From contig NZ_JADTQG010000007.1 in assembly GCF_016008875.1 (NCBI RefSeq), forward strand, positions 186,001 through 250,000: a DNA stretch of 64,000 nucleotides, in the 5' to 3' direction. The position numbers and the translations under genes were made by a program. Positions 32,891 to 35,450 of the stretch are shown piece after piece. Under the pieces are notes generated by a model. That model was not told the DNA's origin, ran no database searches, and was given only the letters and a program-made list of their open reading frames with translations. Numbering within the stretch: the stretch's first letter is position 1; every line of letters starts with the position of its first letter. The DNA comes from Ectopseudomonas mendocina. Lineage in GTDB: Bacteria > Pseudomonadota > Gammaproteobacteria > Pseudomonadales > Pseudomonadaceae.

Positions 32891-34213
32891 ATGTCCACCG
32901 CCACCCCGAAAGTCGGATTCGTCAGCCTTGGTTGCCCGAAGGCAACTGTCGACTCCGAACGCATCCTGACCCAGCTGCGCATGGAAGGTTACGAGATCGT
33001 ACCGACCTACCAGGATGCCGACGTAGTGGTGGTCAATACCTGCGGCTTTATCGACAGCGCCAAGGCCGAGTCGCTGGACGCCATTGGTGAAGCGCTGGCC
33101 GAGAACGGCAAGGTGATCGTCACCGGCTGCATGGGCGTGGCCGAGGACAGCATCCGCGACGTGCACCCGAGCGTGCTGGCCGTTACCGGCCCGCAGCAGT
33201 ACGAGCAAGTGGTCAGCGCTGTGCACGAGGTGATTCCACCGAAGACCGAGCACAACCCGCTGATCGATCTGGTGCCGCCGCAGGGCATCAAGCTGACCCC
33301 GCGTCACTACGCCTACCTGAAGATTTCCGAAGGCTGCAACCATACCTGCAGCTTCTGCATTATCCCGTCGATGCGCGGCAAGCTGGTCAGCCGCCCGGTG
33401 GGCGACGTGCTCAGCGAAGCGGAGCGTCTGGTCAAGGCCGGCGTGAAAGAGCTGCTGGTGATCAGCCAGGACACCAGCGCCTACGGCGTCGACATGAAAT
33501 ACAAACTGGACTTCTGGAACGGCCAGCCGGTGAAGACGCGCATGCTCGAGCTGTGCGAGGCGCTGTCGTCGATGGGCGTCTGGGTACGTCTGCATTATGT
33601 ATATCCCTACCCCAACGTCGACGACGTGATCCCGCTGATGGCCGCCGGCAAGCTGCTGCCATACCTGGACATCCCCTTCCAGCACGCCAGCCCGAAAGTG
33701 CTCAAGTCGATGAAGCGTCCAGCCTTCGAAGACAAGACCCTGGCGCGCATCAAGAAGTGGCGCGAGATCTGCCCGGAGCTGACCATCCGCTCCACCTTCA
33801 TCGTCGGTTTCCCCGGCGAGACCGAAGAAGACTTCCAGTACCTGCTGGACTGGCTGACCGAAGCGCAGCTCGACCGCGTCGGCTGCTTCCAGTACTCGCC
33901 TGTAGAAGGCGCGCCGGCCAACGACCTGGGCCTGGAACCAGTGCCGGATGACGTCAAGCAGGAGCGCTGGGAGCGCTTTATGGCGCACCAGCAGGCGATC
34001 AGCTCGGCGCGCCTGCAGGCCAAGATCGGCCTGGAAATGGACGTATTGGTCGACGAAGTAGACGGCGAAGGCGCCGTGGCCCGCTCCTGGGCCGATGCCC
34101 CGGAAATCGACGGCAGCGTGTTCATCGACTCCACCAGCGTCAAGCCGGGCGACAAGGTGCGCGTGCGCATCGTCGATGCCGATGAATACGACATGTGGGG
34201 CGAGCTGGTCTGA
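32891..34213 (+). CDS. rimO: Ribosomal protein uS12 (Asp) methylthiotransferase RimO
   Basis: A 440-residue protein with AGAGG before the ATG. The N-terminal UPF0004 domain has cluster cysteines C15, C51 and C80 (SLGCPK, NTCGFI, VTGCMG). The radical-SAM domain has [19 protein letters not shown] (C149, C153, C156), and a C-terminal TRAM domain begins near 375. Motifs such as YVYPYP and PYLDIPFQH fit RimO rather than MiaB. It adds a methylthio group to an aspartate of ribosomal protein S12. Confidence 0.96.
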
Positions 34214-34231
34214 TCGACCACGCCTTGCAGG

Positions 34232-34459
34232 AGCCCCGCTCAGTGCGGTAATGCTGTTCACTTAAGGTTGCACACGCTTCGCTCCCCTCTCCCATTTATA
34301 GGAAAGGGTTGGGGAGAGGGCCGAAAACACCGCGAGACTGCCATTTTCCCCTCGCCGAACGCGGCCCGCCCTAACCCTCTCCCCAGAGGGGCGAGGGGAC
34401 TGATTGCGTTCAACCCTTCCTTATGTGAAAAGCATTACCGTCAGTGCGGGGCTTTTTTT
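34232..34459 (+). terminator. rimO terminator split by an insertion
   Basis: Left arm AGCCCCGC is at 34232-34239. Right arm GCGGGGCT (34446-34453) leads into seven T residues. Removing 34247-34447 (element plus one target copy) restores a compact eight-pair hairpin with loop TCAGT. Confidence 0.75.
34247..34440. mobile_element. 194-bp MITE-like element
   Basis: Terminal inverted repeats of 21 bases, GGTAATGCTGTTCACTTAAGG (34247-34267) and, at 34419-34439, its reverse complement with two mismatches. The flanks are identical 7-base copies of TCAGTGC (34240-34246 and 34441-34447), a target duplication. Internal CCCTCTCC/GGAGAGGG sequences can fold. It has no coding capacity, so it would need a transposase supplied in trans. 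Confidence 0.75.
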
Positions 34460-34739
34460 GTCCAGCGCAGCATCCTGATAACCGCTGAACCGACTGGCTA
34501 CGGCACCTGTGGGAGACGCTTCAGCGGCGAGCTTTTTTCAGCGGTAACACCACTGATCGCGTCTAAAGTCCCTCCCACAAAAAACCGATGCACCGCACTG
34601 GCTTCAGCCGCGAAATTCATGGTGCGCCTGTTCGTGGCTGAAGCCACTCCTCCGGATGTCACACTCCGGACGCAGCTTTCTCACCCCCAGCCTGCACCAT
34701 CACCGGTACAATGGCCTCCTTTTCCTGCCGAGCCAGCCC

Positions 34740-35450
34740 ATGAGCGAACCCACCCGCCTGTCCAAACGCGTCATCGAACTGTTCGGCTGCTCACGGCGCG
34801 AGGCTGACCTGTACATCACCGGCGGCTGGGTCACGGTGGATGGCGATGTGGTCGAGGCGCCGCAGTTCAAGGTCGAGGATCAGCGTGTCGAACTGCTTCC
34901 AGGCGCCAGCCTCGAACCGGTAGACCCGGTCACCCTGCTGGTGCATTGCCCGGCCGCTAGCAGCGCCGCGCAGTTGCAGCACCTGCTGGTGCGCGAGCGG
35001 CACTGGGAGCAAGACCCGCACGCCCAGCGCATTCTGCATGGTCACTTCCTGCGTCAGGAACAAAGCCTGCCATTGCAGAACGGCGCCAGCGGCCTGGTGG
35101 TGCTTAGCCAGGACTGGCGCGCCCAGCGCAAGCTGCGTGAGGACGGCGCCAAGCTGGAGCAGGAATATCTGGTCGATGTCGCCGGCGAACTGCCAGCCAG
35201 CACCTTCGAACGCCTGAAGAAGGGCCTGATCCACAAGGGCACGCAGTTTCCACCGTGCAAGGCCAGTTGGCAGAGCGAACAGCGCCTGCGCTTCGCCCTG
35301 AAGAACCCGGCACCCGACCTGCTGCGGCAGATCTGCGCGGCATTGGGCCTGAAAGTGCTGGGCATGAAGCGCATCCGTATCGGCGGCGTGCCGATGGCCA
35401 AGCTGCCGTCCGGGCAATGGCGCTACCTGGGTGAGAAGGAACGATTCTAA
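34740..35450 (+). CDS. RsuA/RluF-like pseudouridine synthase homologue lacking the catalytic Asp
   Basis: A 236-residue protein from the ATG at 34740. An S4 RNA-binding domain comes first (RLSKRVIELFGCSRREADLYITGGWVTVDG). The synthase fold is shown by KLEQEYLVDVAGEL and the C-terminal QICAALGLKVLGMKRIRIGGV. Where active family members have GRLDxxTxGLLLLT, this one reads LPLQNGASGLVVLS, placing Gln at the catalytic Asp position. It may be an RNA-binding pseudoenzyme. Pipelines would name it rRNA pseudouridine synthase. Confidence 0.8.
   Translation: MSEPTRLSKRVIELFGCSRREADLYITGGWVTVDGDVVEAPQFKVEDQRVELLPGASLEPVDPVTLLVHCPAASSAAQLQHLLVRERHWEQDPHAQRILHGHFLRQEQSLPLQNGASGLVVLSQDWRAQRKLREDGAKLEQEYLVDVAGELPASTFERLKKGLIHKGTQFPPCKASWQSEQRLRFALKNPAPDLLRQICAALGLKVLGMKRIRIGGVPMAKLPSGQWRYLGEKERF

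Follow-up and report, generated by a model that had tools for sequence, protein, structure and literature searches.

An insertion in the rimO terminator

The stretch of DNA analysed here (the window; 64,000 nucleotides) carries rimO on the forward strand at positions 32,891–34,213, an open reading frame of 440 amino acids, stop included, that is so named because similar DNA carries a rimO annotation. Downstream lies a terminator in two parts. Its 5′ arm, AGCCCCGC (34,232–34,239, forward strand; inverted repeat I12), is complementary to GCGGGGCT at 34,446–34,453. Together with the T-tract, GCGGGGCT makes up the 3′ part (34,446–34,459, forward strand; identified from the sequence and the inverted repeat), in which seven T residues occupy 34,453–34,459. 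Between the arms are 206 nucleotides, most of them contributed by a MITE of 189 bp (34,249–34,437, given on the forward strand, the orientation being arbitrary) that begins TAATGC and ends GCATTA. Its boundaries come from its repeats and from alignment with other copies. The MITE occupies the loop of the intrinsic terminator, of which both arms and the T-tract are still present.

The left terminal inverted repeat (34,249–34,267, forward strand), recognized by repeat search and end-motif matches, agrees with the right one (34,419–34,437, reverse strand; inverted repeat I1) at 17 of 19 positions, and the end pattern is matched twice in the window, against 0.03 matches expected by chance. The complementary ends span 34,246–34,267 and 34,419–34,440, that is, 22 nucleotides at 91% complementarity; the preliminary description had counted the two mismatches correctly but gave the span as 21 bases. 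A target duplication flanks the element. Comparison with other copies places its 12-bp left copy, CGCTCAGTGCGG, at 34,237–34,248, 23 nucleotides beyond the end of rimO, and its right copy, CCGTCAGTGCGG, at 34,438–34,449 (both forward strand; 10 of 12 positions identical). The direct repeat TCAGTGCGG is found at 34,240–34,248 and 34,441–34,449. The same comparison ruled out the length of 194 bp and the 7-base duplication that had first been proposed, whereas the MITE-like character of the insert stood. Short, bounded by terminal inverted repeats, flanked by a duplication whose copies differ at 2 of 12 positions, and too small at 189 bp to hold a transposase gene of its own, the insert in the rimO terminator has the properties of a MITE, and the evidence supports this assignment. 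Further inverted repeats (CCGCTGAA...TTCAGCGG) lie at 34,482–34,545, between the terminator and the downstream open reading frame.

Copies of the element and sites without it

The genome that contains the window (5.1 Mb in 44 contigs, Pseudomonas-type as judged by similarity) yielded 84 aligned pieces at E values up to 10, a figure that includes cross-matches between palindrome halves, and 50 matches to the end motif compared with 1 for a reversed control pattern. Of the 30 loci fetched first (L001–L030), 22 have two ends that could be paired, which gives at least 22 copies; this count covers the fetched loci rather than every aligned piece, and loci at which one end is unrecognizable (L003, L014, L022, L024, L026, L027, L029 and L030) were left uncounted. 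Matches to the MITE at E < 1e-12 occur in at least 6 of 119 genomes of the genus, including this one; with six candidates scored per genome, the number of copies counted in each relative is a minimum.

We found rimO in 43 of the 57 genomes searched, again including this one. The MITE is absent within 600 nucleotides of the rimO stop from all 29 loci fetched among the 42 relatives with a rimO match. A strict terminator lies within 150 nucleotides of the stop in 21 of the 29; several of the remaining eight have a rimO terminator by eye, and L063 does not. A lone terminal-repeat flag at L087, which would have indicated a second rimO insertion, was a chance match with four mismatches. Two findings had been named in advance as counting against an insertion, namely relatives without any empty site and a lack of other copies with these ends; neither was seen, and dispersed copies (at least 22 with paired ends) coexist with relatives that lack the insert (0 of 29 rimO loci occupied). 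The two flanks of the copies at L007, L008, L016, L114, L138 and L143 cannot be aligned as a duplication, which points to decay or to recombination with another copy.

Predicted refolding of the split terminator

Joining the flanks produces AGCCCCGCTCAGTGCGGGGCTTTTTTT, an ordinary intrinsic terminator with an 8-bp stem (−20.1 kcal/mol for 41 nucleotides), and thereby rebuilds the compact hairpin followed by seven T residues that the preliminary description had expected. In the occupied site, a consensus scan of 34,000–34,750 found no compact terminator. The region folds at −119 kcal/mol, compared with a mean of −79.1 kcal/mol for shuffled sequences (z = −7.78; 0 of 200 shuffles as low), in agreement with the suggestion that the internal sequences make the element fold. 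In the minimum-free-energy structure, the terminator arms are paired at the base of the helix, which runs four pairs into the U-tract. The arms had been described as about 200 bases apart, which is close to the actual separation, yet they are still predicted to pair because the element is largely self-complementary. Calculations for 53 MITE sites (elements of 150–230 bp) gave a mean of 19.3 expected flank-to-flank pairs, against 14.8 with shuffled interiors. At 50 of these 53 sites the flanks pair more than they do on average with 10 shuffled interiors, in some cases marginally; the gain is modest and stems from an equilibrium calculation, in which co-transcriptional kinetics play no part. The excess supports, rather than demonstrates, retained termination.

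It is conceivable that rimO lost its terminator through the insertion: the long hairpin would form too slowly for RNA polymerase, and transcription would enter the downstream gene. The distance of 206 nucleotides between the arms and the lack of a compact terminator in 34,000–34,750 make this outcome far from negligible, although we consider it doubtful. The arms are still paired at the U-tract in the lowest-energy RNA, the 3′ half of the element could zip onto the 5′ half before the second arm emerges, and many other copies at strong terminators retain both arms and the A- and T-tracts. On the basis of the folding model, rimO termination is probably weakened rather than abolished.

IS4-family elements with matching ends

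The transposase domain PF13006 (Nterm_IS4) is present in 18 of 199 genomes of the genus. Many of these IS4 elements are approximately 1.42 kb long and carry the 18-nucleotide sequence TAATGCTGTTCACTTAAG at both ends, to which the left end of the MITE in the window is identical; beyond these 18 nucleotides, the MITE has a boxC-like interior that, by eye, does not resemble the ends of the insertion sequences. The terminal repeats can thus be matched to a transposase family, as the preliminary description had proposed to do. The transposase of one such element (L127) scores above the cut-off for PF13006, PF01609 and NF033592, the NCBIfam IS4 model, and its reading frame contains a YREK motif, YQERWEIELGFRDIK, read by eye. 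The IS4 subgroup is characterized in the accessible text of De Palmenaer et al. (2008; PMC2266710) by -AATR--- ends, direct repeats of 10–13 bp and a YREK transposase. The elements studied here have TAATG ends and exact duplications of 10–14 bp (mode, 11), and the L127 partner has a YREK-type DDE transposase. The MITE shares the ends and the repeat length of that subgroup but has no transposase gene.

Because ends, duplications, profile matches and the YREK motif are all marks of the IS4 subgroup, the transposase of the MITE was probably of this kind. Profile searches of the genome that contains the window, which detected PF01609 in an E. coli control, gave no match to PF13006 or PF01609, and among the genomes with listed MITE matches only G085 is also among those with PF13006. 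The transposase has probably been lost from this genome or lies in an unassembled stretch.

A second IS4 type (L117, L119, L124, L125 and L137) has one end, AATGCCAGTCAGTTAAGCTGACTGGCATT, that is itself a perfect hairpin; the terminator rule described below is satisfied at the sites of L117, L124, L125 and L137. Mid-size elements with the same ends as the MITE occur at terminator-like sites in L148 (2,533–3,168; 636 bp) and L223 (1,426–2,162; 737 bp).

Preference for intrinsic terminators

We scored insertion sites after joining their flanks, requiring a stem of at least 6 pairs, at least 4 of them GC pairs, and an A- or T-tract. This home-made, purely sequence-based rule classes 53 of 83 rebuilt MITE and IS4 insertion sites as terminator-like, with the proviso that the 83 sites are partly non-independent phylogenetically and that the two sets composing them may share genomes. 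In the first set, 20 of 36 MITE sites and 18 of 19 insertion-sequence sites pass, compared with 301 of 24,034 flanking positions; in the second set, from named genomes, the figures are 10 of 22 for MITEs, 2 of 3 for mid-size elements and 3 of 3 for insertion sequences, compared with 183 of 18,363. The background is therefore 1.0–1.3% of flanking positions, and 2.0% (103 of 5,165) of positions outside predicted genes. Sites tend to follow genes, with 62 of 81 within 120 nucleotides of a predicted gene 3′ end and 13 of 81 between divergent predicted genes.

The 80 fetched loci are part of at least 119 stretches from one scan. For the first set of sites we retained 55 loci from 65 end pairs, omitting ten that seemed spurious or could not be used: L006 at 208, L099 at 1,442, two L111 pairs, L118 at 521, L131, the 199-bp pairs of L127, L136 and L142, and the 1,458-bp pair of L142. 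Poor pairs at L129, L166, L192, L203, L216 and L219 were kept, of which L192 passes the rule despite its likeness to the omitted L131.

Exact duplications of 10–14 nucleotides, most often 11, flank the element at 40 of the 83 sites. The outer three bases of the duplication pair mutually at 18 of these 40, compared with 130 of 6,248 random 11-mers. Where the exact duplication is 11 bp long (18 sites), an A stands five positions before it in all 18 and a T is the fifth base after it in 17. These constant positions of A and T give the insertion point a fixed place in a unit of A-tract, stem, loop, stem and T-tract. The rule fails at 30 of the 83 sites, many with decayed duplications. Some of the failing sites are other palindromes (by eye, REP-like CGCTCCCAC at L005 and L012), and a few resemble non-terminators.

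Separately from the 83 sites, IS4 relatives beyond the genus were judged by eye at L267–L272 and lie within a terminator at 4 of 5 distinct sites: L267, L269, L270 and L271, from Acinetobacter, Aeromonas caviae, Photobacterium and E. coli. The fifth site, shared by L268 and L272, is a hairpin without a clear T-tract.

One terminator appears to have been hit twice. The L011 and L092 sites are orthologous on both sides (88% and 82–83%), and their MITEs, of 176 and 192 bp, lie in opposite orientation with different duplication letters in two species, a clear case of two separate insertions as judged by sequence. For L134/L163 (an insertion sequence and a MITE) and L120/L223, the match reaches the insertion, within about 10 nucleotides, on one side only, and these are only probable double hits because the match on the other side is offset by about 450 and 300 nucleotides, respectively. 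L006/L162 and L023/L111 share their regions but differ in insertion point and were rejected as double hits. The target statistics are independent of all these cases.

A check for inverted duplications gave a single instance, L002 (1,490–1,704), where one copy of the duplication is the inverse complement of the other and the whole site forms one long palindrome; this single case may reflect templated arm-to-arm correction. Flags of the same kind at L124 and L127 arose because the targets there are palindromic; their duplications are exact direct repeats.

Selection could, in principle, produce such a pattern from untargeted insertion, with copies elsewhere removed and terminators harbouring the least harmful survivors. 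Compact genomes do tolerate insertions at gene 3′ ends, and Silby et al. (PMC2718517), in the text available, proposed that other Pseudomonas repeats occupy a ‘least worst’ location. We nevertheless consider this explanation improbable, given the fixed distances of the A- and T-tracts from the duplication, an orthologous terminator clearly struck twice with two more probable cases, the low frequency of terminator-like positions in intergenic DNA overall (2.0%) and the occurrence of 1.4-kb insertion-sequence copies at the same kind of site. The rimO terminator is probably not a chance victim of a family that prefers terminators.

A boxC-like interior between IS4-type ends

The interior of the MITE contains two boxC/PIT-like motifs, neither assigned to a strand. 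The first (34,283–34,320; CCCTCTCCC ... GGGAGAGGG) was recognized from internal repeats and named after PMC4666352, and the second (34,369–34,413), found by similarity matches, is common to E. coli repeats. The core that they delimit (34,283–34,413) matches the boxC/PIT intrastrand-triplex repeat, as also in L265 and L266, and part of the element is matched in 5,375 of 5,426 E. coli genomes. The interior has the CCCTCTCCC/GGGAGAGGG triple block, for which the triplex itself is a prediction. At one E. coli boxC locus, inspected by eye over about 135 nucleotides in two strains, similarity extends slightly past the motif and no IS4-type ends were seen. A link between boxC/PIT repeats and IS4-type MITEs is possible.

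L162 (6,470–6,676), L199 (5,799–6,004) and L176 (3,624–3,818) represent another type of MITE, which shares the ends and the preference for terminator sites. By eye, its interior contains two strong, ready-made terminator-like GC hairpins flanked by A/T runs, which could preserve termination more directly.

The palindromic interior and its boxC/PIT-like core, common to E. coli, might suggest a REPIN-type palindrome moved by RAYT or a static boxC-type structural repeat, but this is highly improbable, since duplications of 10–14 bp and IS4-type ends fit neither and the same ends and targets recur in elements whose interiors differ.

Relationship to known systems

MITEs and IS4 elements are known kinds of DNA, and so is the use of terminators by mobile elements. 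The 2008 IS4 survey noted arm specificity as a pattern, and the word ‘terminator’ is absent from its main text (PMC2266710). The nearest named transposase that we saw, approximately 63% identical to that of L127, belongs to ISAeme15 (name from a plasmid annotation); one of its ends, CAATGCTGATCAGTTAAGG, is unlike that of the MITE, and its annotated copy (L268) is in the hairpin that lacks a clear T-tract. In Aeromonas caviae, an unannotated relative with 63% identity (L269) lies inside a clear terminator.

Judging by the accessible text of PMC4923244, IS1272 and TnSha1 of the IS1182 family similarly insert, repeatedly and in both orientations, into hairpins that include confirmed terminators, but with a blunt deletion of the stem, no target duplication and another transposase family. 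Such a deletion-type insertion was rejected for the MITE: its target is duplicated, and the hairpin is rebuilt by removing the element and one duplication copy. Class C group II introns also use intrinsic terminators as landing sites; they are retroelements that insert downstream of the hairpin rather than inside it (PMC3522654, available portion). MITEPsy1 and MITEPsy2 of Pseudomonas syringae are likewise MITEs thought to depend on the transposases of other elements, but they have unrelated ends, and MITEPsy1 makes 4-nucleotide duplications at CTAG or YTAA; the main text of that report (PMC3189936) never uses the word ‘terminator’. BoxC/PIT repeats of E. coli share their motif with the MITE core but, in the portion of PMC4666352 consulted, the isolated repeat has no promoter or terminator activity, whereas in the MITE it is carried as cargo, with IS4-type ends on either side.

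The literature searched, which covered few subscription journals, contained no description of this MITE family or of terminators as IS4 targets; the accessible parts of a 2024 MITE review (PMC10969869) and of PMC2965389 describe neither. Within that literature, the combination appears to be new: an IS4-type transposase and MITEs inside intrinsic terminators, with duplications of about 11 bp and self-folding interiors.

A model for the rimO insertion and its implications

We propose, with a probability of roughly 85%, that a terminator-preferring IS4-family DDE transposase once moved the MITE in trans, and that rimO termination was weakened, not lost. The proposal builds on what the sequences show: the ends, the other copies, the duplication, the insert-free relatives, the target preference and the IS4 elements with matching ends. 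The transposase would recognize TAATGCTGTTCACTTAAG ends and mobilize the MITE, preferring intrinsic terminators composed of an A-tract, GC stem, small loop, GC stem and T-tract; insertion would duplicate 10–14 bp over the loop and upper stem. Since searches of the genome gave no matching transposase, the rimO insertion would now be stuck. Its RNA would refold into one long hairpin, with the original terminator stem as its base at the U-tract, so that termination would be weakened without being lost.

More tentatively, and at somewhat less than even odds, a large IS4 clade across Gammaproteobacteria may target terminators, with MITE interiors selected to rebuild a working terminator after insertion. 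If so, selected interiors, whether long palindromes or the ready-made hairpins that L162, L199 and L176 carry near both ends, would make landing almost cost-free. Such a preference would provide a concrete target rule for a subgroup of insertion sequences with previously noted arm specificity, and suggests a strategy of safe landing at gene 3′ ends. It may also offer an IS4-type vehicle for boxC/PIT repeats, and dozens of natural, insert-bearing terminators in which long-range hairpin termination could be tested.
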